This document shows positions 43,918 through 59,422 of a DNA stretch of 64,000 nucleotides, one piece after another. Source of the DNA: Methylocystis sp. ATCC 49242 (GTDB lineage: Bacteria; Pseudomonadota; Alphaproteobacteria; Rhizobiales; Beijerinckiaceae); NCBI RefSeq assembly GCF_000188155.2, contig NZ_KE124774.1:285501-349500 (forward strand). Reading direction: 5' to 3'. Every line of letters starts with the position of its first letter. The first letter of the stretch is position 1. The translations under genes and the position numbers were made by a program. The notes under the pieces were generated by a model that saw only the letters and a program-made list of their open reading frames with translations, was not told the origin of the DNA and did not search any database.

Positions 43918-43918
43918 G

Positions 43919-44533
43919 TCAGCACCCGACGTTGGAGGTGGGGAAGGGTTCATTCTTGAACGTCGCCGTCGACTGGACGAGCCGGGTCTTGCGGCCCTTG
44001 TAGGTCGTGCTGCTGGGGAAAATCAGCGCGGTGGTGAGCAGCGGCGCGGGATAGGCGGCGCGGATCACCACATATTTTTTCGCGCCGCCGACGCAGTAGG
44101 CGTTCTTCGAGTTGTCGAGCTGCGGAGGCTTCAGTCCGCTCTTCGTCGCATTGACGAAACTGCCGTAGTCCGGCGTGTCGAAGGCCTGCACGTCGACATA
44201 GAGATCGGCGCAATTCATGATCGCCGGCAGTTTGGGGCACATGATCTTCGTGCGGAACTGATTGGCGTCGAGCGCCTTGCCGCCGACCGACTGGTTCTGC
44301 ACATAGCCCGTCATGATCTGGCGCGACGCCTGCTGCACGACGGCGTCGAGGCGCGACTGGGCGAAATTGCCGTAGCTGTATTCGAGGATGGCGACGATCA
44401 GCAGGAGAAAGGGCAGGGCGATCAGCCCGAATTCGACCGCCGCGAAGCCACGGGAATCATGAATCAAATTGGCGCAATTGCGCGGAGACGGACCGGCGAG
44501 GCGCCGGAAGGAACTGTTAACGCGTCCGATCAT
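43919..44533 (-). CDS. TadE-family minor pilin; start codon lies in the attachment site
   Basis: 204 residues. IHDSRGFAAVEFGLIALPFL followed by LLIVAILEYSYGNFAQSRL is the TadE signal and helix; ASRQIMTGYVQNQSVGGKAL and several Cys follow. It begins MIGRVN, and these six codons are the 17-base repeat that ends the integrated element. Upstream DNA is now AT-rich element sequence without a Shine-Dalgarno motif, whereas the native upstream DNA lies at 59423 and beyond. Expression of this gene and the two tad genes downstream must depend on read-through from the element or on a weak new promoter. Confidence 0.87.
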   Translation of the reverse strand: MIGRVNSSFRRLAGPSPRNCANLIHDSRGFAAVEFGLIALPFLLLIVAILEYSYGNFAQSRLDAVVQQASRQIMTGYVQNQSVGGKALDANQFRTKIMCPKLPAIMNCADLYVDVQAFDTPDYGSFVNATKSGLKPPQLDNSKNAYCVGGAKKYVVIRAAYPAPLLTTALIFPSSTTYKGRKTRLVQSTATFKNEPFPTSNVGC

Positions 44534-44534
44534 T
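44518..44534. repeat. attL: 17-base core inside tadE start
   Basis: TAACGCGTCCGATCATT, identical to 59406-59422. On the minus strand it reads A-ATG-ATC-GGA-CGC-GTT-A, i.e. the tadE start codon and the next codons. A CGCCAGTTGA motif at 44591-44600, inside the element, is repeated at 59391-59400 beside the other core copy and may be an integrase arm site. Confidence 0.85.
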
Positions 44535-44555
44535 AACAGTATTATGTTATTGTTT

Positions 44556-44816
44556 TTATTTGATATTATTTTGAACCAGCGCCATCAACCCGCCAGTTGA
44601 TCCGCCATTTTGGCGCGATTGTAGGCGAACGGTAGCGAACAAGCCGCCCCGCTCTTTCTTCGCCCTTGGCGGATAGCAGATGGCATGATGCGCCGCGCAG
44701 TAGGGCGAGCCCGTGGCGGAAGCCTCGCCACAGAAGAGCGCCGGCGGATCGTCAATGCTCCCCAGGGCGAACTTGCACTGGCCGTGCTTCAGATCGAGGA
44801 AGGGAACGCCGATCAT
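44556..44816 (-). CDS. GcrA-like C-terminal domain protein
   Basis: 86 residues from the ATG at 44816, which follows GAGGG by 7 bases. MIGVPFLDLKHGQCKFALGS leads to LFCGEASATGSPYCAAHHAI and CYPP. The Cys/His spacing C-x(n)-CG-x(8)-YC-x2-H and the trailing Tyr resemble the sigma70-binding C-terminal module of the alphaproteobacterial cell-cycle regulator GcrA; the N-terminal DNA-binding part is absent. It may be a phage GcrA mimic (inference). An earlier in-frame ATG at 44855 lies inside a terminator and is rejected. There is no terminator between this gene and tadE, 23 bases downstream. Confidence 0.6.
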   Translation of the reverse strand: MIGVPFLDLKHGQCKFALGSIDDPPALFCGEASATGSPYCAAHHAICYPPRAKKERGGLFATVRLQSRQNGGSTGGLMALVQNNIK

Positions 44817-44833
44817 ATCGAGGCCCTCGATAG

Positions 44834-44869
44834 AAAAAACCCCGCGCCAGTTCATCCGTGGTCGCGGGG
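44834..44869 (-). terminator. Intrinsic terminator upstream of the GcrA-like gene
   Basis: On the minus strand CCCCGCG (44869-44863) pairs with CGCGGGG (44846-44840), followed directly by TTTTTT (44839-44834). It should end the long minus-strand transcripts of the element before they reach the GcrA-like gene and tadE, unless anti-terminated. Confidence 0.75.
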
Positions 44870-44912
44870 CTCTCGTGTTCCGGCGAATGGACGACGCCGG
44901 CGTTTGCTCAAC

Positions 44913-45419
44913 CTAAACAGGCAAGCCGCAAGCCGCAACCTCGTCCCCTATCGGGGTTTTCTCCAAAGAGCTTGCCGGGAGTCGGCCCGAGCGCGGGTTG
45001 TTAGGGGACGCGCTCGGGCCACGCCCTCGGCGAGAGGCTGATAACGCCGCTGGCCGGTTCATGCTCGCCGGTGGCGAGCATCCTTGCAAGCGTCGCAGAA
45101 ATATCACGCCGCGCCCGGAAGCGCCGACGACCTTCGCAGCCTGTTCGCTGGACTTGCCGTCCTTAGCTTGTCGCAGGTCTGCGACAAGCTTTTCTTGCCC
45201 TCGCCCGAATTGCTTTCCGGCTTCGACCTGCCTTTTCTTCGCGTCTTCGGCGAAGAGTTTTTCGAGATCGAGGGCCCGCCGTTGCTTTGCCGCCGCCCAT
45301 GCCGTCGAGAGGCATTGCGACCAGCTCCACCCGAGCCCGAGGCGCTTGCCGTCCCTGTAGCGCTTGTGAGCGTCGCGCATGATCGCGGCCCTGTCATATC
45401 CGCCTGCGGGCGTCGCCAT
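44913..45419 (-). CDS. Element protein with KAWRTAK-like N-terminus and ParB-accessory-type segment
   Basis: 168 residues. The N-terminal 45 residues (YDRAAIMRDAHKRYRDGKRL, WSWSQCLSTAWAAAKQRR) resemble a short domain common in phages of this class. The middle (ALDLEKLFAEDAKKRQV, SSEQAAKVVGASGRGV) matches a plus-strand remnant at 47709-48017 and resembles proteins found with plasmid partition genes. After GRGV the similarity stops and the last ~65 residues are basic, low in complexity and cross two hairpins, so the true 3' end may have been altered. It is coupled to the 49-residue gene upstream (stop and start 4 bases apart). Confidence 0.5.
   Translation of the reverse strand: MATPAGGYDRAAIMRDAHKRYRDGKRLGLGWSWSQCLSTAWAAAKQRRALDLEKLFAEDAKKRQVEAGKQFGRGQEKLVADLRQAKDGKSSEQAAKVVGASGRGVIFLRRLQGCSPPASMNRPAALSASRRGRGPSASPNNPRSGRLPASSLEKTPIGDEVAACGLPV
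44984..45081. repeat. Two strong hairpins at the 3' end of the 168-residue gene
   Basis: GGCCCGAGCGCG (44984-44995) pairs with CGCGCTCGGGCC (45009-45020): 12 perfect pairs and a 13-base loop. A second, ATGCTCGCC-GGT-GGCGAGCAT, lies at 45061-45081. Neither has a T-run on either strand. They may shape mRNA or act as protein-binding sites. Confidence 0.6.
45106..45272 (-). repeat. Inverted repeat arm 1 (partner at 47743-47923)
   Basis: 45106-45152 is the exact reverse complement of 47877-47923 (47 bases), and 45224-45272 matches 47745-47793 with about two mismatches. Between these blocks the two arms differ, but each contains a perfect palindrome at the same place. The arms flank 2.5-2.7 kb with the RepA-like gene, small genes and the repressor. 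Confidence 0.75.
45165..45190. repeat. Perfect palindrome within the 168-residue gene
   Basis: AGCTTGTCGCAG (45165-45176), spacer GT, then CTGCGACAAGCT (45179-45190). The paralogous segment at 47832-47853 has a different palindrome around the same GCAG-AC-CTGC core, so symmetry rather than sequence is kept. Confidence 0.6.
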
Positions 45420-45422
45420 GTC

Positions 45423-45572
45423 TCACGTCCTCGGGGCGAGCCGCTCCCCGAGCGCCACGAGCGCCCGGCCGGCGGTAATGGTGAGCGTCCCGGCTTTAAG
45501 GGCCCATCCGGCGAGCCTGATGCGCCACAGCAACGCGGCCAGCTCGGGCAGTGTTTTATCTCGAAGGTTCAT
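45423..45572 (-). CDS. Small element protein, 49 residues
   Basis: MNLRDKTLPELAALLWRIRL, then AGWALKAGTLTITAGRALVA and a short basic tail. GGAG lies 9 bases before the ATG. One amphipathic or weakly membrane-like helix is predicted by eye. It precedes the 168-residue gene by 3 bases on the same strand. No family recognised. The ribosome-binding site and the tight spacing are the support. Confidence 0.5.
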   Translation of the reverse strand: MNLRDKTLPELAALLWRIRLAGWALKAGTLTITAGRALVALGERLAPRT

Positions 45573-45600
45573 CTTCTAACTCCGGGTTGAGCCTCCGGCC

Positions 45601-45720
45601 CATAGGTGGCCAAAAGCGGCTATCTCTTTTTTTGGCCACCTATGGGCATCTTTGGTGGTCTCGCTCATAGGTGGCCATAGGTGGCCAAGTTTTTCGCGTG
45701 GCCATCTTTGGCCACCTATG
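45601..45720. repeat. Iteron-like cluster: five copies of CATAGGTGGCCA
   Basis: Perfect 12-base copies lie at 45601-45612, 45666-45677 and 45676-45687 (plus), and 45633-45644 and 45709-45720 (minus). A partial copy is near 45699. Between them is an AT-richer patch with a TTTTTTT run. The cluster follows the RepA-like ATPase gene and overlaps its stop codon. Clusters like this serve as replication origins or repressor arrays in plasmids and satellites. One half-match (AGGTGGCC) recurs at about 51231. Confidence 0.7.
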
Positions 45721-46849
45721 GTTGAAGGCTCCACGTCCATTGCCCTTCCGGTCCGAATCCAGAGCGAGCCACCTTCACGCCAAGCGCCTTCTGCGCCCGC
45801 CTCACTGTCCGCCACGCCAGCCCATTCGCCTCGGCCGCCTCCTTCACGTCCTTCGCCGCCATCGGCCCGTCGGCAAGCAACGCCTTCAGGAACGTCTCGG
45901 CGTCGCTTTCGGCGCGCCCCTTGTCGTCGTCGGGCTCGCCAAGCAACTCGCGCGGGCTTCCCTTCACCGCTTCGCCCCATTCGACATAGGAGGTTTCGAC
46001 GCCCGGATGCCCGACAATGCCCGTCTGGCATATTTCATAGGTGAAGCCATTGCCGTCGGGGCCGATGTTCGATTTCACGCGACAGACGATGCGCGGCGCT
46101 GGCCCGTCGTCCTCTGCCTTCTTCGCCGCCATCAGGACAATTCGCGCCACGGCGCCGAAGGCCAGCGAGCCGGAGAGGCGCTCCAGGGGCTCCCGTCCCG
46201 CCGAGCCTTTCGCGACATGCGTCACCCCGATCAGGGCCGCGTCCGTCGCCGCCGCAAGGTCCACGAGCGGCTGAAGCCCGCGCCTCGTTTCCGTGTTTTT
46301 GTGGCTGTCGCCGGTCACGGCGTTCACGATAGGGTCCACGATTATCAACGCCGCGCCTCCCGCCCGTTCGATCGCCGCCTGCAAGGGGCCAATGTCGCGG
46401 GAAGGATCGAAGGCGCGGGCGATATCGCCGCTGTAGACGCCGCCGACGAAGAAGATGCGCCGCATATCCGCGCCCGAGGCTATCAGGCGAGGAACAAGAG
46501 TGTCGGCGGGGTCATCCTCGCCGGACCAGATGACGACGTTGCCAATGGGCGCGTGTGAGCCGTCGGGCCATGCGCCACCCGTCGAGACGGTCGCGGACAT
46601 GCGCAGGCAGATGGTGGTTTTCCCGGCGCCGGGCGAGCCGCCGATGATGTGCAGCTTGCCCTTCGCCATCCAGCCGGGCCAGAGCCAACGAATGGGCTCG
46701 GGCTCGATTGCGTCGGCGCGGACCAGTTCGACTTGTGGCGCGGCCGGAAGCCCGACGACGATGCGCGACCGGTCGCCGCGTTGCTCGTGATATTCGGCGG
46801 CGGCGGCCGCGAGAATTGCGGGGTCAACGGTCAACGATTTCCTCCACAT
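45716..46849 (-). CDS. RepA-like hexameric helicase/ATPase (AAA_25, RecA fold)
   Basis: 377 residues. After ~55 N-terminal residues, IRWLWPGWMAKGKLHIIGGS leads to Walker A GGSPGAGKTT near 72-81. Then NVVIWSGEDDPADTLVPRLI, Walker B AALIIVDPIVNAV, and a sensor block ALIGVTHVAKGSAGREPLER followed by SGSLAFGAVARIVL. This is the RSF1010 RepA-type replicative helicase group. The C-terminal ~90 residues include a winged-helix-like part (MAAKDVKEAAEANGLAWRTV). The start overlaps the previous 48-residue gene by 26 bases. The iteron-like cluster at its 3' end suggests a replication module. Confidence 0.82.
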   Translation of the reverse strand: MWRKSLTVDPAILAAAAAEYHEQRGDRSRIVVGLPAAPQVELVRADAIEPEPIRWLWPGWMAKGKLHIIGGSPGAGKTTICLRMSATVSTGGAWPDGSHAPIGNVVIWSGEDDPADTLVPRLIASGADMRRIFFVGGVYSGDIARAFDPSRDIGPLQAAIERAGGAALIIVDPIVNAVTGDSHKNTETRRGLQPLVDLAAATDAALIGVTHVAKGSAGREPLERLSGSLAFGAVARIVLMAAKKAEDDGPAPRIVCRVKSNIGPDGNGFTYEICQTGIVGHPGVETSYVEWGEAVKGSPRELLGEPDDDKGRAESDAETFLKALLADGPMAAKDVKEAAEANGLAWRTVRRAQKALGVKVARSGFGPEGQWTWSLQP

Positions 46850-46970
46850 CGTCGTCTTCTAGGTCCGCGTCGCCGTCCAACTGGTCGAGAAGGTCAAGCA
46901 GCAGGTCGACCACGGCTTCGAGGCGGTGGCGGAGGTTGCCGTCCAGTTCGACAAATAGGCGCTGGGTCAC
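46824..46970 (-). CDS. Small acidic element protein, 48 residues
   Basis: Starts with GTG at 46970, overlapping the TGA of the 90-residue gene (GTGA). It reads VTQRLFVELDGNLRHRLEAV, VDLLLDLLDQLDGDADLEDD, then DVEEIVDR: a Leu/Asp-rich helix with a strongly acidic end. The frame is too short for automatic calling, but coupling on both sides supports it. Similar small acidic proteins accompany RepA-like genes in phages. Function unknown. Confidence 0.5.
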   Translation of the reverse strand: MTQRLFVELDGNLRHRLEAVVDLLLDLLDQLDGDADLEDDDVEEIVDR

Positions 46971-47239
46971 GGCTCCCTCCCGTCGCTAAAGATGCGCTCG
47001 ATGCGCGGCTCGCCTCTCTCGCGCTTGGCCTTGTCTTGGTCTGTCAGGTTGTCGGACAGCTCTTCGAGGTCCGCCCGGACGAAGAAGATGAAGTCGCCAA
47101 GGGCGCCCGCCACGTCTTTTGAGAGCCCCGCGCCTTTGATGGCAAGGTCGAGCGCGATCAAGCGACATGCGGCCCGATCGAGAGCATCGATAATGTCGAG
47201 TTCCTCCAGCTCTTCGGTTTGCTGCGTCGCTTCAGTCAC
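46967..47239 (-). CDS. Element protein, 90 residues, unknown function
   Basis: Begins with GTG at 47239 inside GTGACTGA, where the TGA ends the previous gene. The sequence is helical and acidic (EELEELDIIDALDRAACRLI, GDFIFFVRADLEELSDNLTD), with a basic C-terminal third. No domain recognised. It lies in the coupled run 47348-45716 leading to the RepA-like ATPase. Confidence 0.55.
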   Translation of the reverse strand: MTEATQQTEELEELDIIDALDRAACRLIALDLAIKGAGLSKDVAGALGDFIFFVRADLEELSDNLTDQDKAKRERGEPRIERIFSDGREP

Positions 47240-47348
47240 GGCGGCGGCCTCCCTTGATCGAGGCGACGGCCCGGCTCGCCTCATAGGCGACGAAGGCCAG
47301 CCAAAGCAGGCTGAAGGGGGCGAGGGCGAAATAAAAGGCGGGGTCCAT
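47232..47348 (-). CDS. Single-helix membrane peptide, 38 residues
   Basis: MDPAFYFALAPFSLLWLAFV is a hydrophobic helix, followed by AYEASRAVASIKGGRRRD, an amphipathic and basic tail. GGAGG stands 9 bases before the ATG. It is the first gene of the leftward run next to the divergent repressor promoter. A small membrane toxin or anchor is possible, but nothing shows that. Confidence 0.5.
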   Translation of the reverse strand: MDPAFYFALAPFSLLWLAFVAYEASRAVASIKGGRRRD

Positions 47349-47467
47349 TGGGCAAGCCTCCGGCGTTCGCGGAAATGGTGTTTCCGCGTTGTGTGGAATT
47401 GATGAGAAGTTGTTGGCCTGATATAAAATACTCAGTCGCGTTGCTTCGTCAATAGGAAATAATCGGC
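47349..47467. promoter_or_regulatory. Divergent promoter region between the leftward run and the repressor
   Basis: 119 bases, AT-rich compared with its surroundings (TGATATAAAATACT, AATAGGAAATAATC), between oppositely oriented genes. This is the expected place for the switch promoters of the element. No repeated operator could be picked with confidence. Confidence 0.45.
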
Positions 47468-47722
47468 GTGATAAAATATAATCACATAACCGGGCGTCAG
47501 ATAGCGGCGGCGCTTGGCCTTGCGCGCATGACACAGGCGGAATTGGCGAAGGCAGCCAACGTTTCCATTCCGACGATCGGCCGCATGATTGCCAGCGAAG
47601 GCCCAGCCGTAGGCATGGCCAATAACGTCGCCGCGATCCGCGCCGCCCTCGAGGCGGCGGGCGTCGAGTTCATTGCCGAAAATGGCGGCGGGCCAGGCGT
47701 GAGGCTGAAGAAGGCGGAATGA
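47468..47722 (+). CDS. Cro/CI-type helix-turn-helix repressor
   Basis: 84 residues from a GTG at 47468. The N-terminal domain ITGRQIAAALGLARMTQAEL, AKAANVSIPTIGRMIASEGP is a clear XRE-type HTH, and VAAIRAALEAAGVEFIAENG with GGPGVRLKK is the common short C-terminal strand of this subgroup. It is one of only two plus-strand units in the element and stands alone against the leftward genes, as lysogenic repressors do. GAAAT precedes the start, so the ribosome-binding site is weak. Confidence 0.82.
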   Translation: MIKYNHITGRQIAAALGLARMTQAELAKAANVSIPTIGRMIASEGPAVGMANNVAAIRAALEAAGVEFIAENGGGPGVRLKKAE

Positions 47723-47831
47723 ACGCCAGCTCGCCCTCATCGCGCTCGACCTCGAAAAGCTCTTCGCCGAAGACGCGAAGAAAAGGCAGGTCGCCGGGCT
47801 CAAGAAGGGCAATAGTCAAGATAAAGTCCCC

Positions 47832-47853
47832 GTTCCCGCAGACCTGCGGGAAC
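47832..47853. repeat. Perfect palindrome in the plus-strand paralogue
   Basis: GTTCCCGCAG (47832-47841), AC, CTGCGGGAAC (47844-47853). It shares only the central GCAG-AC-CTGC with the palindrome at 45165-45190. Confidence 0.6.
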
Positions 47854-47958
47854 AGACGACACGTCGCCAGAATGAATCCAGCGAACAGGCTGCGAAGGTC
47901 GTCGGCGCTTCCGGGCGCGGCGTCCAGATGGCGAAGAAGGTCGCGGCCCCACGATTTT

Positions 47959-47980
47959 CACTCCCCAAAATTGGGGAGTG
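47959..47980. repeat. 22-base perfect palindrome between convergent genes
   Basis: CACTCCCCAAA followed by its exact complement TTTGGGGAGTG. It lies just before the stop codon of the tape-measure-like gene and inside the end of the plus-strand paralogue. A bidirectional hairpin terminator or a protein site is possible; there is no T-run. Confidence 0.6.
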
Positions 47981-47988
47981 GACTTTGC

Positions 47989-50598
47989 CTATTCGCCCTT
48001 CTGCGCCGACGCCGTGAAGTTGCGATTTTGCTCGGCCCGAATGGTGCCGATCTTCGCCGACGCGGCGCCAGCCGCCGCGCTCAAAGCGTTGACCTTGCCC
48101 GTCGCCCCCGACGCCGCCGCGCCGACCTGGTGAAGGAGCCCGAGTAAGGTTTGAACCTTGCCGATTCCCGCGTCTACGCTGCCCGTATCGACATGCGGCG
48201 CGACGGACAGGTTCAGCCCCTCGAACGCCGTGCGCGCGCCTTCCGCTGCGCCCTTCGCCGCCTCTGCGCTCGATGCGTCCACTTGCGGTGTCACTGTCGT
48301 GTTGAGTGCGGCGAAGCGATCGGACGCCCCCTCAATCGATCCCTTGAAGGCGTCGAGCGGCCCAACATCTACACGGGGCGTGACGACCATCTCCTGCGGA
48401 GGAATAGGCGGGATATCTTCGACCTTGGGAGTGACGCGAAGCTCTTGCGGCGTGAACGGCGGGACAGGCTCGACTTTCGGAGTGACGACCATCTCCTGCG
48501 CCGCAGGAGCTTGCGCCGCCGGGATCGGCCGCGCCTTCGCGTCCTCGCGCAACATGCGCGGGGCGAGCGTCGGGGCGGGCTTTGGTGGCAAGATCGCTTG
48601 TGGAGTAATGACAGGCGCCGCCGGCGGAACGCGCTCCACATCCTTCGCCCGGAGGCTCAGCGGGCGCACGGTGGGCGCGGCCGGCGCGGGCTTTTCGGCA
48701 GGCGCGGGTCGCTCCGCAACCGCAGCCGAATTTTCGCCCGTTTTGTCAACCGGCGCATGTCGCAGGCCGTGCGTGTAGCCGCCGGGCTGGCGCGGCGGCT
48801 GCGCCGTGATCTTCGTGCCAGGCAGTTCCAATTGCGCTTTCGCAGCGTCGAGTGCGCTGGCGTCGAGCGTGATCGGTATTCCCTGCATCTTGCGAAACGC
48901 CGGAAGGTTGCTCGCGCTTATGCCGCCGGCGACGCCCATCGGGCCAGCGTCCTTGCTCTTCGCCCAGTCCTTCGCCTTGACAGATATTTGCGGCAATTGC
49001 TGAAACACGGGACGGGGCGGCTCGGGAGCCGCCGGCGGCTGATTGATCTTCAGCCGCTTCTCCAAGTCAACCACGGACTCGCCGACAGGCGTGGCGCGGG
49101 AGCGGGCCTTCTCGCTCTCTTCGGTCGCCGCGCGCATCCGGTTTGCAGCCGACGCCCATTTATCGGCGATGCTGTCGAGCCACGGGAGAACAACCGGCTT
49201 CGCGGCCTGCGCGGCGATATCCAGAAGCGACTGCTTCAGCTTTTCGAGCTTCGCTTCGGTCGTCCCGGTTTCGATATCCATGGCGCCCTGCATGGATTTG
49301 CGCCACGTTCCGCCGCCAAGATAATCGAGCAGGCGAATGATCTCGGGAAGCGCTTGCTGCATGCGTGTGGCTTCGTCCCACCATTCGGCGCCTACCAGCG
49401 ATTTCATGGTGCCGACGGAATTTTTCGCCTTTCCGACGCGCTCAAGGAGATCAATCATCGTCTCCATTGGCTTTGTCTGCATTCCTTCTTCGACTTGCTT
49501 GCCGGACAGTCCAATTTCCTTGAATGCAGCGGCCGCACCTTTCCCGAGCGTTGACGCGGTGCGCAGCTTCGACGTGAACGCTGTCAGAAACCGCGCCGCC
49601 ACGTCGGTTTCCATCCCGACGCCGCGGAGGGCGGTCATCATCGCGAGGGCGTCATTCTCGCCGACGCCCGCCGCCTTCATGCCTGCCATGGCGCGCTGCG
49701 ACATCGCGCCAATGTCTTTTTCAGCCGCCGCAGACACGTCGCCCAAGCCGTTGATCTTGTCGGCGAACACTTCGAGGTCTGCGATAGATTTGCCCGTCTG
49801 CGCCCTCACCTCGGTCAGCATCTGCGCAGCCTCACGGGCGCTAATGTCCCAAGCAGTCGAGACCTTCGCGCCAAGCAGGGCAAAGGCGTCCAAATCCTTA
49901 TAGGCAACGCCCGACTGCCCGCCCTGCGCGAAGATGGCGGCCACATCCTGATAGCTCTTGCCGATGCTCGTCGAGACGTTCGCGATCTTGCGGTCGAGCG
50001 TTGACCAGCTATCGCCCGCGTCGAGCGTGACCTTCTTCTGAATTTCCGCGAACGCCTTGTTGCGGCTGATCGCCTCTTTGATCGCGACCGTGGAGACGCC
50101 GCCGACCGCCGCGCCAGCAACCGCCGCGCCGCCCATGCCAACCATCATGCCGGCCGCGCCCGGCAGGGCAAACGAGGCAACGTCGGACGCTTTTGCGCCG
50201 ATACCGCTGAACCGGCCGACGCCATGCGTGGCAGATGCGGCGATGGCCTTGTTCAACGCTATCCGCTCGCGCACGGACGCCTTTGCCGCCGCGAGGATCT
50301 GCTTCTCCTTCGCGAGCATCATCGCGGGGCCCTTAGACGACCACGCTTGCGCGCCCATCGCCTGCTTTTGCGCCCGCGCATAGGCCAGCCATTCCGCGCG
50401 CACGTCGCGCAGCTCGGCGCCGGTGAGTTTCAAGCTCGCGAGCTGACGGCGAAACGGATCAGAGCCCGCCTTTCCCATGCCTTTGGCTACAGCCGCCGCC
50501 GCCTTCTCGGCGTCCTTGAGCGCCTGCGCGACCGTGCGCGCCGGCCGGGAAACGTCGTCAATGAGACGGACGGTTAAGGAGCTTGTGAGGGAAGCCAT
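47989..50598 (-). CDS. Phage tail tape-measure-like protein
   Basis: 869 residues. The N-terminal ~110 residues are helical (TVAQALKDAEKAAAAVAKGM). A hydrophobic Gly/Ala stretch (GAAGMMVGMGGAAVAGAAVG) leads into the TP901-type core: TLDRKIANVSTSIGKSYQDV, AIFAQGGQSGVAYKDLDAFA, MLTEVRAQTGKSIADLEVFA and LRGVGMETDVAARFLTAFTS. The C-terminal third is Pro-rich with three imperfect repeats around VTPKVEPVPP and VTPRVDVGP, then a helical end. Tape measures set tail length and are injected with the DNA. No other tail gene is adjacent, which is odd. AAAGGA precedes the ATG. Confidence 0.75.
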   Translation of the reverse strand: MASLTSSLTVRLIDDVSRPARTVAQALKDAEKAAAAVAKGMGKAGSDPFRRQLASLKLTGAELRDVRAEWLAYARAQKQAMGAQAWSSKGPAMMLAKEKQILAAAKASVRERIALNKAIAASATHGVGRFSGIGAKASDVASFALPGAAGMMVGMGGAAVAGAAVGGVSTVAIKEAISRNKAFAEIQKKVTLDAGDSWSTLDRKIANVSTSIGKSYQDVAAIFAQGGQSGVAYKDLDAFALLGAKVSTAWDISAREAAQMLTEVRAQTGKSIADLEVFADKINGLGDVSAAAEKDIGAMSQRAMAGMKAAGVGENDALAMMTALRGVGMETDVAARFLTAFTSKLRTASTLGKGAAAAFKEIGLSGKQVEEGMQTKPMETMIDLLERVGKAKNSVGTMKSLVGAEWWDEATRMQQALPEIIRLLDYLGGGTWRKSMQGAMDIETGTTEAKLEKLKQSLLDIAAQAAKPVVLPWLDSIADKWASAANRMRAATEESEKARSRATPVGESVVDLEKRLKINQPPAAPEPPRPVFQQLPQISVKAKDWAKSKDAGPMGVAGGISASNLPAFRKMQGIPITLDASALDAAKAQLELPGTKITAQPPRQPGGYTHGLRHAPVDKTGENSAAVAERPAPAEKPAPAAPTVRPLSLRAKDVERVPPAAPVITPQAILPPKPAPTLAPRMLREDAKARPIPAAQAPAAQEMVVTPKVEPVPPFTPQELRVTPKVEDIPPIPPQEMVVTPRVDVGPLDAFKGSIEGASDRFAALNTTVTPQVDASSAEAAKGAAEGARTAFEGLNLSVAPHVDTGSVDAGIGKVQTLLGLLHQVGAAASGATGKVNALSAAAGAASAKIGTIRAEQNRNFTASAQKGE

Positions 50599-50618
50599 TG
50601 GTTATCCTTTCACCTGGT

Positions 50619-51125: not shown

Positions 51126-51416
51126 CGGGCAATCCCCATTGTTTTATCGACCTTTTCGATAGACTAGACCGGAACGGAACCGGAAAAATCAAAAAATCGA
51201 ATATAATCAACGATCGGGGTCGCCGCCCGCAGGTGGCCGAAAAAATGGCCAAAAGGAACCATCAATTATTTCAATTACTTAGCCGATGCTGGTTGCGGAA
51301 TGGCTCAGCATATGCTTGCAATGGCAAAGGCAATGCTTGTTCGGCGGCGGCTGGGATGAGCGCGCCCCGGCCGCCGCCTTCGCCACGGGTGATCTAAGTC
51401 CGTGGCGAATCCTCTG
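51126..51416. other. Intergenic stretch upstream of the terminase-like gene
   Basis: 291 bases without a supported gene. It contains an AT-rich patch (about 51176-51215) and a half-match to the iteron-like unit near 51231 (AGGTGGCCGAAAAAATGGCC). A promoter for the terminase-like and tape-measure-like genes is expected here. The packaging site (cos or pac) could also be here, but I cannot identify one. Confidence 0.45.
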
Positions 51417-51785: not shown

Positions 51786-51794
51786 TTTCATCTC

Positions 51795-52163: not shown

Positions 52164-52178
52164 TTCCGATCCCCTTGA

Positions 52179-53204: not shown

Positions 53205-53219
53205 GTGGGCCTCGTTAGT

Positions 53220-53543
53220 TCACATCAACTTGCGCCGACTCCATCGCCAAGAAAACCCCGTCGCGCTCGCCAAATTCGCCAAATTCGCCAACGCCGGATT
53301 TTTTCTAAGAAACGCACGCAAGCCTCGTTCCGAAAACTGCCAACTACCGGTCGGTAGTTTCCATCCGAAACCGTGCTGACGTGCGTCGCGGTAGAGTGAT
53401 GAGAACGATCGTTTAGCGATCCTCGAGGCCTCGTTAGTTGAGAGCGTGCGATCCGGCTTCGCGGTAGACTTTTCCCTCGCTTCGAGTTCGTCGGCGAGCT
53501 GCGCGGCGAGGCGGGCCAGCTCTCGAAGTTCATCGGCGTTCAT
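53220..53543 (-). CDS. Helix-turn-helix protein, 107 residues
   Basis: From the ATG at 53543: a helical N-terminus (ELRELARLAAQLADELEARE), then LSTNEASRIAKRSFSSLYRD, ARQHGFGWKLPTGSWQFSER and GLRAFLRKNP. The second part looks like a winged or excisionase-type DNA-binding fold with S/T-rich entry helix and tryptophan in the wing. A tandem unit in the DNA (AAATTCGCC repeated at about 53273-53291) encodes the LANLANLA run. Its start overlaps the end of the gene before it by 14 bases. Confidence 0.55.
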   Translation of the reverse strand: MNADELRELARLAAQLADELEAREKSTAKPDRTLSTNEASRIAKRSFSSLYRDARQHGFGWKLPTGSWQFSERGLRAFLRKNPALANLANLASATGFSWRWSRRKLM

Positions 53544-53763
53544 TGCGCGTCCCCCGATTGCGGCCACAGGGGACCGCTGGCGAGTTTTTCGATGTGTGCG
53601 CTAGCGTGGTAGCGGGCGCTCGCGTTTCGCGCACGAGCGGGTCGTTTTTGGCGATCTGGCGCAGGGCGAATGCGATCTCGGCGCGCTCCTCGAAAAAGGA
53701 ATGCGGATCGCGGCGAGATGGGGAGAGGCGCTCCACGCGCGCGGCGAGTTCGGAAAGCGTCAT
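53530..53763 (-). CDS. Element protein, 77 residues, unknown
   Basis: The ATG at 53763 overlaps the previous stop (ATGA). MTLSELAARVERLSPSRRDP and HSFFEERAEIAFALRQIAKN are shared features of short hypothetical phage proteins; the C-terminal third is basic. It is the third gene in a chain of four overlapping short genes. Function unknown. Confidence 0.5.
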   Translation of the reverse strand: MTLSELAARVERLSPSRRDPHSFFEERAEIAFALRQIAKNDPLVRETRAPATTLAHTSKNSPAVPCGRNRGTRNERR

Positions 53764-53993
53764 CTCATTTCCTCCTCGACGACGGTCATGACGGCCTTTT
53801 GCAACTCGAGCATCGTGTCGGGGTCCGGCCGGTCGAAGGTCGCGAGCATCTCGCGGGCGCACTGTCTCGATCGGGCGGCGATTAGTGCGTTGTTCGCGTC
53901 ATCCGGGAGATGGGCGACGACGCGCTCGACGACGGCGAGCCTGAATGCGAGGCTCGCGGTGAGGTCGCGTGTGAGCGGCGGCCGGCGGGTCAT
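53760..53993 (-). CDS. Element protein, 77 residues, helical
   Basis: MTRRPPLTRDLTASLAFRLA then VVERVVAHLPDDANNALIAA, REMLATFDRP and LELQKAVMTVVEEEMR. All-helical by pattern. ATGA overlaps with both neighbours show coupled translation. No family recognised. Confidence 0.5.
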   Translation of the reverse strand: MTRRPPLTRDLTASLAFRLAVVERVVAHLPDDANNALIAARSRQCAREMLATFDRPDPDTMLELQKAVMTVVEEEMR

Positions 53994-54271
53994 CCGAGCA
54001 CCTCGATGCGGTCGGCGCGAAGGTCGAGGCGAAGGCGCGGACTGTGAGAGCTGTCGTCGATACGGAAGCTCGGGACGCCGACGACGCGGACGCGCTGGCC
54101 AGGTCGTAGGGCCATGGCGGCGGCGCGCACCGCGTCTTCGACCGCGACGACGTTCCAGCTCCGCCCCTGCTTCTCCCGCGCCACGAGTTTGGCGAAAGGC
54201 CTCCCGTCGAAGCGGGCCTCGATCCGGGCGAGTGAGTGGACGAAGGCGGTAACTTCAGCTTGACAGCTCAT
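53990..54271 (-). CDS. Small OB-fold-like protein, 93 residues
   Basis: MSCQAEVTAFVHSLARIEAR, DGRPFAKLVAREKQ, WNVVAVEDAVRAAAMALRPG and QRVRVVGVPSFRIDD, RLRLDLRADRIEVLG. The order of strands and the phrase ALRPGQRVRVVG resemble primosomal/SSB-like OB folds. As it lies beside the Prim-Pol/helicase gene, it could be the single-strand-binding partner of the element (inference). AGGAG stands 8 bases before the ATG. Confidence 0.5.
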   Translation of the reverse strand: MSCQAEVTAFVHSLARIEARFDGRPFAKLVAREKQGRSWNVVAVEDAVRAAAMALRPGQRVRVVGVPSFRIDDSSHSPRLRLDLRADRIEVLG

Positions 54272-54304
54272 CGGCGGCTCCTGATTTTATTGTTAAGGTC
54301 GCGT

Positions 54305-54428
54305 CCGCACCTTCCGCACCTTAGGTGCGGATGAAGTGCGGAGGGTTCGGCAAAACCGCATCCGCCGCACCTCCCTTATAGGGGTGCGGGGTGCGGTGCG
54401 GATGCGAGGCGCGGGAAGTAAGGTGCGG
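54305..54428. repeat. Iteron-like cluster: eight GGTGCGG heptamers
   Basis: GGTGCGG occurs at 54324, 54383, 54390, 54395 and 54422; its complement CCGCACC at 54305, 54314 and 54365. An inverted pair, CCGCACCTTAGGTGCGG, lies at 54314-54330. The cluster fills the gap between the Prim-Pol/helicase gene and the OB-fold-like gene. It may be the element's replication origin or a repressor array. The sequence differs from the GGTGGCCA cluster at 45.6 kb. Confidence 0.65.
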
Positions 54429-54429
54429 A

Positions 54430-56595
54430 TCATGCGCGCACCCCGACGGTGATGTATTGCCTGTCTCGGCCGTCGCGCGGGCTATGACGGGCCTCAATTT
54501 TCAGCACGCCGTTTTTTAGCCAAACCTTGAGCAGCGATTTGACACGCGCCTTGTCGGCTGCGTTCTCGATATCCAGGCAGAGCGCTTCGGCGACGGCGCG
54601 ACCGGCCCAGTTGGCCGCCTGCACGTTTGCGGCATGCTCGCCCTCCGCGAGGGCGTCCTGCACCTTGCGCAAGTCGTCAGTGCATAGGCCGTCAAGCGCG
54701 TCCGGCCACTGCCACGGCGTCACGACGCCAACCATGTCGCCCTCCCGCATTCCGCCGTTGCCGAGCGGCACGGACACCATTCGAAACCAGTCTGACCCTT
54801 CCGGCGGCGGCGCCAGGTTTGCCTTTCCGTTGTCGGCGCGAAAGTAAAGTTTGTGATTATCAACTCCGGCGCGTGCGCCCTCGTCTTCTGTCATCGAATT
54901 AAGGACGCGCGCCGATCGCACCGCTCCGAGCAGCGCGGACGCGCCGCGAGCGTGTTCGACCGTCACCTCTCCGCCGCCGGTCTTGCGTGAGTGATGCACC
55001 AGCTCGATCGCGCAGCCGGTTTCGTCGGCGATCTTCGCCCAGGCCTTCACAACCGCGTCGATTGCGCCGTTATCGTTCTCGACGACGCGGTGACACGACA
55101 CAAACGGGTCGATGCGCAACACGTCGATGCGGCAGTCACTGATCGCCTGCTTTACGGCTGAGACGACGGGCGTAGCGATGGTGAAGCCGTTGCGCTCGGC
55201 GCGAGCAATGATGATTTCTTGGTCGCGCCCCGAGTCGAGGAAGAGCCGCCCGCCGATCTCTTCGGGTCGCACGTGATAATGCAGACAGATCGCCGCGATG
55301 CGCCTTTCCAGCTCTTCGAGAGGATCCTCGCCGTTCCACGACCAAACACTCAGCTCCGATTCAATGCTTTGACCGAGGATCGACCGCCCGCTCGTCATCG
55401 CCACGTCTTCAGCGAGCCCGAGAGCGGACTTTCCGACGCCTGGAAGCGCAATGGTCGAAGAAACGAATTTGCGGATCAGGCGGCGACCGTAGAGCCATTG
55501 GCGCATGGGGATGGTCGCCGGGTCGCGCCAAACGAACGGCGTCGGGCGAATGATGCGCGGATGCAACGCCTGATTTGCTTGTGGCTGCGACAAAATCTCG
55601 CCCGTCTCGGCGTCGGCCACCACGCCGTCCTGGACGATCGTCGCGCGAGGTTTTGGCCCGAGAAGAGATTGCCCGAAGTCGGCGCCGCTCTCGTCGAGAC
55701 GAAGCCAATCCGCCACGGCGCGCCCGATCGCGTCGCCGAACGTGTCGCACAATGTCGGTAAGCCGGAAAATTGCGACCCCGAATTTGCGCGCGCATGCGT
55801 GCTTCTGATCGCCGCCTGAAAGTCTCTCACGTCTTCGTCGTCGACGGCGCGGGCGAGCGCTTCAGCGAATAGCTTGCTCTCGCTCTCAGAAAATCCGGCG
55901 CGGACCAAGACGCCGCCGACAGCAAGGCGCGCGTCATGGCGAGCGCCATGCGCCGGCCAATGCCGCGCGAGAAGCGAACATGCGGCGAGGCGCTCGACGC
56001 GACGCAAAAGGTCGTCGCATTCGACGCGCGCAGGCTCGCCGTCACATCCCGGCTCCCAAGCGATCGGCTCGCTTGTGTCTTCGTGTGCCGAGCCCGGAAA
56101 GACTGTCTGGACTTTCGGCCCAAGCCGCAAATCGACAAGGCGCGCCTTTGCGCCACGCTCCTTGGCGATCGGATCGTCAAAGTAGACGTTGGCGGAAAGA
56201 TTTACACTAGCTGAGTTAGTGTAATAGAGCCAATGCGACGCGCGCGCCGTCTCGCGACCGAAGATCGCTGCGGTTTTTTGAAGAAAATACGGCGCGGCCG
56301 CGATGGCTTCGCGGCAATCCAGATCAACGTCAACTAGTCCGCCAGAGACTTCGCCGAGCGCCACGCCGATGTTGCATGGCGCGCCGTTAAAATAGCGTGA
56401 CGCCTCGTCGGCGCTGATCCGGAGGTCCGTCCAGCCGGGGAGTGATGGCGCTTTCGATCGGAAGCTAATCGGGATCGGCGACCAGCCGCGCTCGATGTAG
56501 TCGAGCGCGACGGCGAGGGGCGACGGGGCGTCGTCAGTCGGCGCGGGAGGCGGCGACGGCTGGCGACGCCAGGGGGGCGAGGGCGCGAGCGTCAT
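54430..56595 (-). CDS. Prim-Pol primase fused to a RepA-like helicase
   Basis: 721 residues from the ATG at 56595, which overlaps the previous stop (ATGA). The N-terminal bifunctional primase-polymerase domain (about 25-200) has ALDYIERGWSPIPISFRSKA, the metal motif LVDVDLDCREAIAA, and the later QTVFPGSAHEDTSEPIAW. The helicase part has Walker A ALPGVGKSALGLAEDVA, WSWNGEDPLEELERRIAAIC, Walker B DVLRIDPFVSCHRV, and LVHHSRKTGGGEVTVEHARG, the RepA/AAA_25 pattern. A longer frame to 57138 overlaps two upstream genes and is rejected. Such fusions replicate satellites and plasmids without host primase. Confidence 0.85.
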   Translation of the reverse strand: MTLAPSPPWRRQPSPPPAPTDDAPSPLAVALDYIERGWSPIPISFRSKAPSLPGWTDLRISADEASRYFNGAPCNIGVALGEVSGGLVDVDLDCREAIAAAPYFLQKTAAIFGRETARASHWLYYTNSASVNLSANVYFDDPIAKERGAKARLVDLRLGPKVQTVFPGSAHEDTSEPIAWEPGCDGEPARVECDDLLRRVERLAACSLLARHWPAHGARHDARLAVGGVLVRAGFSESESKLFAEALARAVDDEDVRDFQAAIRSTHARANSGSQFSGLPTLCDTFGDAIGRAVADWLRLDESGADFGQSLLGPKPRATIVQDGVVADAETGEILSQPQANQALHPRIIRPTPFVWRDPATIPMRQWLYGRRLIRKFVSSTIALPGVGKSALGLAEDVAMTSGRSILGQSIESELSVWSWNGEDPLEELERRIAAICLHYHVRPEEIGGRLFLDSGRDQEIIIARAERNGFTIATPVVSAVKQAISDCRIDVLRIDPFVSCHRVVENDNGAIDAVVKAWAKIADETGCAIELVHHSRKTGGGEVTVEHARGASALLGAVRSARVLNSMTEDEGARAGVDNHKLYFRADNGKANLAPPPEGSDWFRMVSVPLGNGGMREGDMVGVVTPWQWPDALDGLCTDDLRKVQDALAEGEHAANVQAANWAGRAVAEALCLDIENAADKARVKSLLKVWLKNGVLKIEARHSPRDGRDRQYITVGVRA

Positions 56596-56936
56596 TTTTG
56601 CCCCCACGAAAGACTCGTCGAAACCGATCGCGGAGCCCTCACGCGACGACGCGGGACAACGGCGAGCATTTGACGCAACACCGTGACTATATGCGGACCT
56701 TCGGCGACCATCTCGACAAACGCGACGAAAAAGGAATCTTCCTCGATCCTTGCGAGCAGTGCGCGGTCTTCGTCGTCTTTTCCCAACAGGACGACCGCAC
56801 GGTCGCGATATCGGAAAGCTCGAATAACTTCGCCGTCTGTGCAGGACATGTGCTCGATTATGCCACTCAGAAAGAGGCGGATTCCGCGCCGTCTGGCGAG
56901 CGTTCTGGTCGTTTCGAAAGATGTTTTTGCGGTCAT
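56592..56936 (-). CDS. Element protein, 114 residues, unknown
   Basis: The ATG at 56936 overlaps the stop before it (TGATG). TAKTSFETTRTLARRRGIRL, FLSGIIEHMSCTDGEVIRAF, DRAVVLLGKDDEDRALLARI and FVAFVEMVAEGPHIVTVLRQ suggest a small alpha/beta protein. No family recognised. It is coupled to the Prim-Pol gene and may aid replication. Confidence 0.5.
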   Translation of the reverse strand: MTAKTSFETTRTLARRRGIRLFLSGIIEHMSCTDGEVIRAFRYRDRAVVLLGKDDEDRALLARIEEDSFFVAFVEMVAEGPHIVTVLRQMLAVVPRRRVRAPRSVSTSLSWGQK

Positions 56937-57151
56937 CACGCCACCCCCTCAAATGCGAGGCTCGCGACCGCCGCAGCCATCGTAGGAGTGAGGCGGAAAC
57001 GGCGCGCGAGGAAGGCGACGCGGATTTCTTGAATGGACGGAAGGCTTGCGCTATTTGAAACATCGAAAGCGCCAGCCAGCCTTTCGACGTTCCGACGCCC
57101 GCTTCCCGCATTCCGCCGGATTGCGGGCGTCTCCGCATTCGGAGGCGCCAT
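56936..57151 (-). CDS. Element protein, 71 residues, unknown
   Basis: MAPPNAETPAIRRNAGSGRR then LPSIQEIRVAFLARRFRLTP and TMAAAVASLAFEGVA. The C-terminal half resembles a helix-turn-helix (RLTPTMAAAVASLAFEG). The ATG at 57151 lies 2 bases after the AlpA-like stop; a TTG at 57157 that overlaps it is the alternative. Confidence 0.5.
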   Translation of the reverse strand: MAPPNAETPAIRRNAGSGRRNVERLAGAFDVSNSASLPSIQEIRVAFLARRFRLTPTMAAAVASLAFEGVA

Positions 57152-57153
57152 TC

Positions 57154-57360
57154 TCAAGCGACCTTCGCCGTCTTATCGGCGTCGCCGGCCTTCTTCAAAT
57201 ACTTCTCGAGTAGAGCCTCGGCGTCCTGGCGGCGAATCAGAGTTTTTGACGCGATCTTCACGACTGGAAGATCGCCAGAATTTATCAGCTCATACGTGAG
57301 GGTTTTGCCGATCTTTGCCCAAGCGCAAAATTCGGAAACCGTGAACGCGCCGCTATCCAT
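57154..57360 (-). CDS. AlpA/excisionase-like DNA-binding protein
   Basis: 68 residues from the ATG at 57360. FTVSEFCAWAKIGKTLTYEL and INSGDLPVVKIASKTLIRRQ, DAEALLEKYLKK form a MerR-like winged helix of the excisionase family (first helix, turn, then G-x-L-P-x-x-x-I/V-G/A-x-x-x-x-I/V). P4-like elements use AlpA both to activate int and to aid excision. It heads a tightly coupled run to the Prim-Pol/helicase. A frame extending to 57441 lacks a good start. Confidence 0.78.
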   Translation of the reverse strand: MDSGAFTVSEFCAWAKIGKTLTYELINSGDLPVVKIASKTLIRRQDAEALLEKYLKKAGDADKTAKVA

Positions 57361-57465
57361 TTCGCTCGCTCCTTCCGCCCGGACAATTCCGAACGTGGGC
57401 AAAAGTTGGCGAGCTTTTCGCGCGGCGTCTAAGGGACACAACGCCGTGAAATTTGGCGTTATGTC

Positions 57466-58050
57466 TTAGGTCTTTCTTTGCAATGCCTTAGCAATTGCGG
57501 CGTCTGAAATTTCAACGCCGGCCGCAGTGAAAATGTGGCGGCAAAAATTCAGAAACCCGCCCGAATGAACTTCGGTCTCGGGGTCGTATGTGACGCTTGC
57601 CCGGCTTCCAAAACGATAGAGGAAAGCGCCCGCCAATGTCTGGCGGACGAAGTGCGCAAAACCGCGATCGGTCTTCGCGGCCACATCATAATTTGCCGCC
57701 TCATGCCGAAATTGCTTCTCGGCTTTTTCGAGCGCGGAGATCATTTCGCTCGCGCGCAATGCCGAATAATCGCCGAGAGCCGGCGAGTATCCGTAGGTAT
57801 CGACAAATGCGCTCAATTTCTGCGCCAGCGCCGCCGCTTGTTTTTCGATGTGCTTCGCGGCGTCCCGCCGCTTTGATTGGGCGCCCTGTTGCACGCGAAA
57901 ATTTATCCGTTGTGCCTCGGCGACAAGGAAGCCGCAGTGCTCTCCGAAGGCGCGATGTGTGCAATTCACAAGGGCGATGCCGACGGCTTCTTCGGCGCGC
58001 CGCCCCTGCGCCTCGAATGTGGCGGCGTCTTCGCGATCTAGGTCGATCAT
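57466..58050 (-). CDS. Element protein, 194 residues, unknown
   Basis: The start overlaps the integrase stop (ATGA at 58047-58050). AEEAVGIALVNCTHRAFGEH, a helical coiled middle (RRDAAKHIEKQAAALAQKLS), and RQTLAGAFLYRFGSRASVTY, SGGFLNFCRHIFTAAGVEIS. Small proteins of similar pattern follow P4-type integrases in alphaproteobacterial islands. No domain recognised. It is coupled to int and may modulate it. Confidence 0.55.
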   Translation of the reverse strand: MIDLDREDAATFEAQGRRAEEAVGIALVNCTHRAFGEHCGFLVAEAQRINFRVQQGAQSKRRDAAKHIEKQAAALAQKLSAFVDTYGYSPALGDYSALRASEMISALEKAEKQFRHEAANYDVAAKTDRGFAHFVRQTLAGAFLYRFGSRASVTYDPETEVHSGGFLNFCRHIFTAAGVEISDAAIAKALQRKT

Positions 58051-59324
58051 TCGCGAGTGACCTTGAACTGAAGAATGTCAGCGCCGCCGGCCGCTTTAGG
58101 TTCGATGTAGCTCGCCCACGTTTCCATGAGCGCCCGGCGCTTCTCCAAGGCGTCGCCGCGCCGGTAGGCTTGTTCCGCCTTGTCGCCAACAACGTGCGCC
58201 AGCGCGGCCTCGGCAACCTCGCGCGGAAAGTTAGTTTCGTTTCCGGCCCAGTCGCGGAAAGCGGAACGGAAGCCGTGAACCGTGACGTCGGTATCTCCTA
58301 TCTGTTTCACCAAATTCCACATCGCGGCATGGCACATTGCTCCGCCGCGCGCGCGGCCGGGAAAGACATGACTGCCGATTTGCGTCGCAGACAGCTTTTC
58401 GAGAATTTCCAGGGCCCGGCCCGAGAGTGGAACGCGATGTTCGCGCCCGGCTTTCATACGCTCGGCGGGAATCGTCCATACCCGGCCCGCCGTGTCGATT
58501 TCCGACCATTGCGCGCCTAGCACTTCGCCGCTTCTTGCGGCCGTGAGGATCGCGAATTCGAGGGCCAGCGCGGCGACGCTTTCACGGTCGCGCAGCTTGA
58601 CGACGAAGGCCGGAACATCCTCGTATGGGAGCGCCGCATGATGAGCCCGCGCAAGCCGCCCCCGCTTCGGCAAAAGGTGCGCCAGATGGCCACGCCATCG
58701 CGCCGGATTCTCGCCCGATCGCAGCCCCTGCGCCTTGGCAGCGTCCAAGACTGATTCGATTCGTCCCCGCAGGCGCGATGCTGTTTCCGGCGTCGCATGC
58801 CACATAGGCGTTAGGACGGCGAGAATCGCACCCGTGTCGACCTCGTCAACCGGGATCTGGCGCAGCGGCGCGGCGATATGCGATAGCGCTTGGCGCCATT
58901 GGTCTCGATGCTTCTCACTCCCCCACTGGATTGCCTTCGATTCGATAAACCGATCGGCAATCTCTCCGAACGTCGGCTTGGCCTCACTGGCGCGCCTCGC
59001 CTCCCGCCGGACCTCGATCGGGTTGCGGCCGGAACGCAGGATCCGGCGGGCCTCGTCTCTGGCGCCCCGCGCTTCGGCGAGGGTCACGCCTTCGTCAAAG
59101 CTCCCGAGCCCCATTTCAGGGCGCCTGCCTCTGAAGGAAAACCGAAAAACCCATGTCTTGCGCCCCGACTCGCTGACGCAAAGATAGAGCCCGCCGCCGT
59201 CCGGGTAGAGCCCAGGTCCGGCCGTCTGCACCTTGCGCGCGGTCAATCTTCCGATCAATTCAGCGCCCCGCCAGTTGGTCCCCCATGTAAACACGAATTT
59301 AGGCGCATCGCGGCGAACGCGCAA
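58047..59324 (-). CDS. int: P4-type tyrosine integrase
   Basis: 425 residues as an upper limit. The DUF4102 arm-binding domain opens with LTARKVQTAGPGLYPDGGGL and SGRKTWVFRFSFRGRRPEMG, the core-binding domain with FGEIADRFIESKAIQWGSEK, and the catalytic domain with LEFAILTAARSGEVLGAQWS (Arg I), HRVPLSGRALEIL, VTVHGFRSAFRDWAGNE (HGFR) and AALAHVVGDKAEQAYRRGD (His/Trp position and Tyr). All catalytic residues seem present. The first ~22 residues look non-coding, so a TTG at 59258 may be the real start. It lies just inside attR and points away from it, so a host promoter to the right would transcribe it. Confidence 0.9.
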   Translation of the reverse strand: MRVRRDAPKFVFTWGTNWRGAELIGRLTARKVQTAGPGLYPDGGGLYLCVSESGRKTWVFRFSFRGRRPEMGLGSFDEGVTLAEARGARDEARRILRSGRNPIEVRREARRASEAKPTFGEIADRFIESKAIQWGSEKHRDQWRQALSHIAAPLRQIPVDEVDTGAILAVLTPMWHATPETASRLRGRIESVLDAAKAQGLRSGENPARWRGHLAHLLPKRGRLARAHHAALPYEDVPAFVVKLRDRESVAALALEFAILTAARSGEVLGAQWSEIDTAGRVWTIPAERMKAGREHRVPLSGRALEILEKLSATQIGSHVFPGRARGGAMCHAAMWNLVKQIGDTDVTVHGFRSAFRDWAGNETNFPREVAEAALAHVVGDKAEQAYRRGDALEKRRALMETWASYIEPKAAGGADILQFKVTRE

Positions 59325-59421
59325 GAACGGTCACGGCCGGAATACACAAGGAATCAGTTGATTGGACGAACGCCCAAAAACGCCTGCGAACGCCAGTTGA
59401 GCGGATAACGCGTCCGATCAT
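59299..59421 (-). other. Orphan frame begun by the native tadE start codon at attR
   Basis: At the right end, the old tadE start (MIGRV) is joined to element DNA and runs for 40 codons (then IRSTGVRRRFWAF...), ending inside the 5' end of the integrase frame. It is not expected to have a function of its own, but shows that the native tadE start and leader now lead into int. Confidence 0.5.
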
Positions 59422-59422
59422 T
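59406..59422. repeat. attR: 17-base core next to integrase
   Basis: TAACGCGTCCGATCATT, the same 17 bases as at 44518-44534; the next bases differ on both sides. The arm-like CGCCAGTTGA lies six bases inside, at 59391-59400. The reconstructed uninterrupted site would give ...GAGCGGGTAAA-ATG-ATC-GGA-CGC-GTT-AAC-AGT-TCC..., an intact tadE start with a purine-rich leader. Confidence 0.85.

Follow-up and report, generated by a model that had tools for sequence, protein, structure and literature searches.

Mobile elements that integrate at the 5′ end of a gene, and thereby part it from its control region, have been described in other bacteria. The phage-satellite-like SpyCI islands of Streptococcus pyogenes are reported to insert at the 5′ end of mutL and to sever its promoter: SpyCIM1, which excises in a growth-dependent manner, cuts mutL and its partners in the operon off from their promoter, and SpyCIM5 carries a cryptic promoter within int that rescues mutL (PMC3430984). 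Phage HK022 is described as parting torS of Escherichia coli from its native control near the start of the gene and as supplying torS transcripts from a phage promoter (PMC6814406). A locus of comparable anatomy is present in Methylocystis sp. ATCC 49242, a Methylocystis-group methanotroph with a genome of 4.73 Mb in six contigs. In a stretch of 64,000 nucleotides of contig NZ_KE124774.1 (the window, whose positions are used throughout), an integrative element of ∼14.9 kb, here called the tadE element, lies at the start codon of tadE, the first gene of a Tad pilus operon.

The likeness to these systems is partial. Excision of SpyCI restores transcription, and in the published account growth-dependent excision was shown by experiment, whereas the tadE element is known here from sequence. 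The SpyCI promoter lies before mutS; in Methylocystis the target is the start codon of an alphaproteobacterial Tad pilin-family gene, and int is on the promoter side. HK022 is a phage; the tadE element is satellite-like. The original prediction held that a reversible switch at a pilin start codon would be unusual. That view is too strong, as SpyCI and HK022 document promoter separation by integrative elements at gene 5′ ends, and a reversible switch by such an element is a known idea. Among the titles and abstracts listed by a search of the open-licence literature there was no element at tadE, nor the combination of a tadE target, a conserved cell-cycle-like leader captured by int and a gene for the tail of GcrA at the opposite end.

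Other parallels concern parts of the element. Helper-embedded phage-inducible chromosomal islands (HE-PICIs, a class of PICIs) are described with int, AlpA and primase genes co-directional with the split gene and with a late zone of captured phage genes (PMC10111431), and the tadE element is similar in both respects. HE-PICIs reside inside prophage late genes, whereas the tadE element is in a host pilin operon, and its AlpA-like protein has no match to the Phage_AlpA model, the satellite signature of the HE-PICI paper, where that model is reported to recognise AlpA in 462 of 476 model satellites (PMC10111431). In the CtrA-controlled alphaproteobacterial phages described under lytic deferment, host CtrA sites time the genes of a mobile element (PMC9437464); those sites are in phage DNA, whereas the putative site here is host DNA captured by integration. 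phiCbK-like Caulobacter phages carry a PF07750 protein, for which an effect on the cell cycle of the host has been proposed (PMC3556154), and GcrA homologues borne by phages and prophages have already been published (PMC3556154; PMC12429752). Of GcrA, the tadE element has the sigma-interacting end alone.

Element ends and the empty site

The element is bounded by an exact 17-bp direct repeat, TAACGCGTCCGATCATT, with the left attachment core at 44518–44534 and the right core at 59406–59422, both read on the plus strand. This sequence has two sites in the window even when three mismatches are allowed, and exactly two exact matches across the genome; the reversed control has none. The ATG of tadE is the complement of 44531–44533, within the left core, in agreement with the predicted overlap of core and start codon.

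For comparison, tadE was surveyed in 61 genomes, the Methylocystis genome and 60 relatives, of which 33 have some tadE match. The close tadE set comprises this genome and four relatives, G022, G009, G034 and G024, whose identity to it ranges from 51 to 77%. The same five are the top matches among the 54 of 397 family genomes that match tadE (E 1e-20). When the flanks of the element are joined in silico, the product aligns across the core to G022 (865 bp, 78%) and to G009 (846 bp, 74%). Both relatives share 16 of the 17 core bases, read ATGATCGAACGCGTTA at the start and have the same tadE start codon, and their gene order (ssb, leader, tadE, tadF, tadG) is that of the present locus without the insert. 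The uninterrupted tadE that the original prediction proposed to look for is thus found in two genomes that lack the element, and its start is not elsewhere. In G024 the leader is likewise uninterrupted, but the first tadE codons differ and the core is absent; the G034 contig starts inside tadE and is uninformative on insertion. As with SpyCI, the insertion lies between a control region and the 5′ end of a gene, and relatives have an intact empty site. Judged by these alignments, the element is a site-specific insertion at the tadE start.

Three copies of CGCCAGTTG, at 44591–44599, 59269–59277 and 59391–59399 (plus strand), lie near the element ends in one orientation and resemble arm sites of an integrase; elsewhere in the window the sequence recurs once, at 34617 on the opposite strand. 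A repeat search with each end taken alone detected no shared arm repeats, and the putative sites were found by a shared-word comparison of the two ends. With one base of the core made degenerate, a single contig in IMG/VR was matched, a match dismissed as chance, as blastn and tblastx detected no similarity between that contig and the window (E 0.001).

The two junctions

At the left junction stand three genes of the displaced operon, all on the minus strand: tadE (43919–44533; PF07811; 77% identical in G022 and 75% in G009), a second TadE-domain gene in the tadF position (43258–43953; PF07811) and a Tad/TadG-like gene (41800–43248; PF13400). All three are open frames with Pfam matches above cut-off. 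The insertion leaves the tadE frame intact and removes the leader together with a conserved promoter-like block and the ribosome-binding region. Ahead of tadE, the nearest 45 bp are now 18% GC, as compared with 69% in the native leader, and no Shine-Dalgarno-like sequence is seen by eye ahead of the gene. The anatomy of the two junctions shows that tadE has lost its native leader through integration. Two predictions are borne out by these data, namely that tadE and the two tad genes after it keep their coding sequences without the native leader, which aligns with relatives at the other end, and that AT-rich element DNA lacking a ribosome-binding motif now precedes tadE.

The last gene of the element, absent from the original prediction, shares the strand of tadE and stops 22 bp short of it. 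This free-standing gene (44556–44816, minus strand) resembles the sigma-interacting domain of GcrA and is here called the GcrA-tail gene; its start codon was picked by comparison with sibling islands of the same genome, described below. It matches profile positions 103–153 of 155 in PF07750 (E 9e-9, above cut-off) and GcrA of PDB entry 5yix (E 1.1e-5), with 23 bits against the NCBIfam GcrA equivalog, far below the cut-off of 280. GcrA is described as having an N-terminal DNA-binding and a sigma-interacting domain (PMC7403470); the sigma-interacting end alone matches here, short of a full regulator, and the product is possibly a sigma-factor modulator. The gene is in all five siblings, at the end away from int. 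Sibling genes for this domain lie at C6 positions 410470, 1331645, 1522612 and 3663389 of the genome, and partial GcrA matches besides the full-length one occur in nine of 13 genus genomes searched, the present one included. Just before the GcrA-tail gene is a terminator-like hairpin with a U-tract (44829–44890, minus strand; −25.1 kcal/mol, z −3.2). The same sequence is in three of the four other siblings and is absent from the one at tRNA-Asn; consensus scans do not list it.

At the right junction the displaced native leader (59423–59640, minus strand) aligns with G022, G009 and G024. It contains a 23-bp block at 59538–59560 (minus strand), GGAWTCGTTAAGGAAACGCTAAC, in which a GANTC site stands beside a CtrA-like TTAA-N7-CTAAC. 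With up to two mismatches the block occurs once each in four of 39 genus genomes (this genome, G022, G009 and G024), which are those where a close tadE and its leader are visible. Its identity to the present sequence is 23/23 in G022, 22/23 in G009, where the sole change keeps GANTC, and 23/23 in G024; for the remaining aligned leader the values are 147/201, 131/200 and 92/168. The block is present in four of 55 tadE upstream regions (the joined site included; two are short). L087 and L090 lack it and have a looser CtrA-like box, and L007 has a second box. No CtrA-like box was found in the second Tad locus of the genome (L067) or in neighbouring DNA (L146), so that in this genome the motif is not shared by Tad loci in general. 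The joint GANTC and CtrA-like pattern occurs once in the genome; as the pattern was derived from that very site, the evidence for the block is its conservation and not the genome count. By its sequence, the block looks like a CtrA site with a GANTC site next to it.

GANTC is the site of CcrM, which bears a RAMA domain. The genome has one RAMA-domain protein and, by profile search, a full-length GcrA match. In 14 control genomes the RAMA model matched Caulobacter only; the GcrA model matched Caulobacter and, unexpectedly, Sulfolobus. Between ssb and the tad leader lies a small gene (59794–60183) with a sub-threshold carboxypeptidase-regulatory-like match, and tblastn detected no match to it in the G022 or G009 loci. 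A hairpin at 59440–59485 was considered as an int terminator and rejected, as it has no U-tract on the int strand.

Next to the leader is a tyrosine integrase gene (58047–59258, minus strand) with matches to arm, central and catalytic models (Arm-DNA-bind_3, Phage_int_M, Phage_integrase) and no internal stop. Integration also leaves a hybrid frame of 40 codons (59299–59421, minus strand) that begins at the captured start codon of tadE, continues into element DNA and ends 40 bp before the int start. The predicted placement of int on the same strand as the leader holds. The distance of 82 bases does not, for it takes the first TTG of the frame at 59324; homologues place the start at the TTG at 59258, 147 bp from the core.

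Among relatives of the integrase, a tRNA gene in the fetched flanks (three of 30 loci, and the tRNA-Ser sibling) is upstream of int on the same strand, which makes int behind a host gene a recurring geometry. Peculiar to this locus is that the host gene ahead of int is cut at its 5′ end. No tad match was found in the 29 integrase loci of other genomes, within flanks of ∼1.5 kb or less. Six integrase relatives are on viral contigs. A scripted search found no attachment repeats at three other integrase loci (L125, L127 and L128). At L129 (genome G004) a 62%-identical integrase is apparently inserted within the coding sequence of an unrelated protein gene, as seen from open frames only, with repeat copies at 6471 and 15938 on the reverse strand.

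Expression of tadE and int

The best explanation of the locus is a PICI-like insertion at the tadE start that deprives tadE of its leader, places int behind that leader and may make both subject to switching; it is given about an even chance of being right. The anatomy of the insertion is firm. From it we infer pilin silencing, expression of int from a host promoter and reversible switching. A tyrosine integrase would insert the element at the 17-bp site spanning the tadE start codon, and in the integrated state tadE, tadF and tadG would be turned down or re-timed. Transcription of int would start at the host promoter, perhaps a cell-cycle promoter of the CtrA/GANTC kind, and cross the hybrid frame of 40 codons. 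Int and the AlpA/Xis-like protein would excise the element, which would restore the operon and take int off the host promoter. If these steps are true, a satellite-like element controls Tad pilin-family genes of a methanotroph, and perhaps its surface attachment, and uses a host promoter of the cell-cycle kind to time its integrase. A more elaborate proposal is that the host cell cycle acts as the clock of the element, whereby insertion at tadE captures a CtrA/CcrM-GcrA-type promoter for int, the GcrA-tail product modulates promoters of that class, and both excision and the return of the pilin operon to its normal state are tied to a stage of the cycle; this is improbable.

Several observations weigh against the proposed switch. 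The CtrA consensus is given as TTAA-N7-TTAA (PMC9437464), and the site in the leader has one mismatch to it, kept in all four genomes. TTAA-N7-YTAAC occurs once in the window, and at least once in six of 100 shuffles of the window. A consensus promoter scan is blank in 59200–59800, the expected region of the native promoter, is at chance over 44300–59800 (three found, 2.1 expected) and lists a minus-strand promoter-like site at 47452–47425, inside the element. The integrase gene may have its own promoter within the 147 bp ahead of its start. In addition, the tad frames are open and their dN/dS (nonsynonymous to synonymous rate ratio) on the branch of this genome is below 1, which does not point to a long period of silence, though integration may be recent. 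The values, from a three-taxon split without a significance test, are ∼0.38 for tadE, ∼0.39 for tadF and ∼0.24 for tadG, as compared with 0.26, 0.12 and 0.11 on the G022 branch and 0.20, 0.27 and 0.37 on the G009 branch; ssb has ∼0.02 on the branch of this genome. As a test of silencing, dN/dS was indecisive.

Instead of silencing the operon, the element might rewire it by re-supplying transcription of tadE, tadF and tadG, either from a promoter in or near the GcrA-tail gene or its AT-rich left end, or through transcripts that start deeper in the element. The co-directional GcrA-tail gene ending 22 bp before tadE, the 18% GC of the 45 bp ahead of the start codon, the open tad frames and the site at 47452–47425, from a scan at chance level, are consistent with this, and the same outcome is reported for HK022 at torS (PMC6814406) and SpyCIM5 at mutL (PMC3430984). 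By analogy with these two cases, transcripts from the element could run into tadE. The terminator-like hairpin upstream of the GcrA-tail gene argues against it, as do the lack of a Shine-Dalgarno-like sequence by eye and of a consensus promoter on the tad strand in 44400–45000; this last silence carries little weight, because the scan is at chance level and is blank in the native leader too. The tRNA-Ser sibling, by eye, is likewise AT-rich at that end, and the stretch may therefore belong to the attachment site. On balance, rewiring is possible and rather unlikely. A similarly doubtful alternative is an incidental or fixed insertion: a new site, an int gene with its own promoter, no excision, and tadE, tadF and tadG lost because another Tad locus suffices. 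The genome does have a second locus, ∼150 kb away, with genes for TadE-domain and secretin proteins, and loss of the three genes need not abolish Tad pili. The insertion was seen in this genome only; of the other four close-tadE genomes, three are uninterrupted and one has a contig that begins in tadE. The mosaic siblings suggest recombination, and dN/dS on the present branch is somewhat above the other two in tadE and tadF and between them in tadG, with no significance test. What speaks for a working element is that int, the AlpA-like gene, both cores and the three tad frames are all intact. A fixed insertion is compatible with silencing, and its probability overlaps that of the switch.

Gene content and sibling islands

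By its genes, the tadE element is a PICI-like (phage-satellite-like) integrative element. As in Gram-negative PICIs, int and primase genes are present and co-directional with an alpA-type gene, the last being HTH_17/excisionase-like with sub-cut-off scores; int, the AlpA-like gene, the primase gene and the tad genes are all on one strand. Its size of 14.9 kb and its lack of a complete set of phage structural genes also fit. Pfam was run on 19 chosen frames of the element, nine of which were also compared with PHROGs (in a PHROGs scan of 10 frames), and none of them matched a capsid, portal or large terminase. Phage_min_tail is not among the Pfam matches of the 19 frames; PhageMin_Tail (PF10145), which was matched in a tape-measure role, is presumably a different model.

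The AlpA/excisionase-like helix-turn-helix (HTH) protein (57154–57441, minus strand) scores 25.5 bits with HTH_17 (cut-off 27) and 24.1 with TIGR01764 excise (cut-off 28.8). Phage_AlpA does not match it (E 0.001), though the protein is a related small HTH protein. Beside it, the Prim-Pol/AAA replication protein gene (54430–57138, minus strand; PF09250, PF13481) probably has its true start inside the frame.

Four further islands in the genome have most genes in common with the tadE element (loci L121, L122/L130, L123/L131 and L124/L132). All are at tRNA genes, namely tRNA-Ser, tRNA-Val(GAC), tRNA-Val(CAC) and tRNA-Asn, with direct repeats of 15, 55, 53 and 51 bp, respectively. Among the five siblings, the tadE island alone cuts a protein gene from its leader. 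Its integrase is 66% identical to that of the tRNA-Ser island and 31–34% identical, over part of the protein, to those of the tRNA-Val(GAC) and tRNA-Asn islands; with it as query, no integrase was found in the tRNA-Val(CAC) island. The five are near-identical in several genes and differ in integration modules and target sites, which suggests module swapping among siblings within one chromosome. They offer a natural comparison in one genome: four islands are at tRNA genes, and the fifth is at the start codon of a pilin gene that has lost its leader.

The other element genes lie on the minus strand except for one. A gene of no family match (57466–58050) is kept beside int in the tRNA-Ser sibling. 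Another unassigned gene (52179–53204) is in all five siblings and in seven of 298 family genomes, this one included; outside this genome its best match is 40% identical, with one partial match at 51%. A terminase small subunit-like gene (50619–51125; phrog_57, E 1.2e-23) is in three of 39 genus genomes, again counting this one. The gene for a tail tape-measure-like protein (47989–50598; PF10145, TIGR01760) is in three of the five siblings, and no other tail gene is among the scanned frames. A putative HTH regulator (47468–47722) is on the plus strand, opposite to the other assigned genes of the element, with four weak HTH matches, all sub-cut-off, and relatives in all four siblings. An AAA_25 protein (45716–46849; PF13481) is 98.9–99.2% identical in the four siblings, and a further gene of no assigned function (44913–45419) is partly repeated in them. 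GGTGGCC-type repeats, both direct and inverted, are clustered at 45600–45720, next to the end of the AAA_25 gene and reaching into it; their fold is very stable (z −8.7 and −10.9), and the cluster is perhaps a replication origin.

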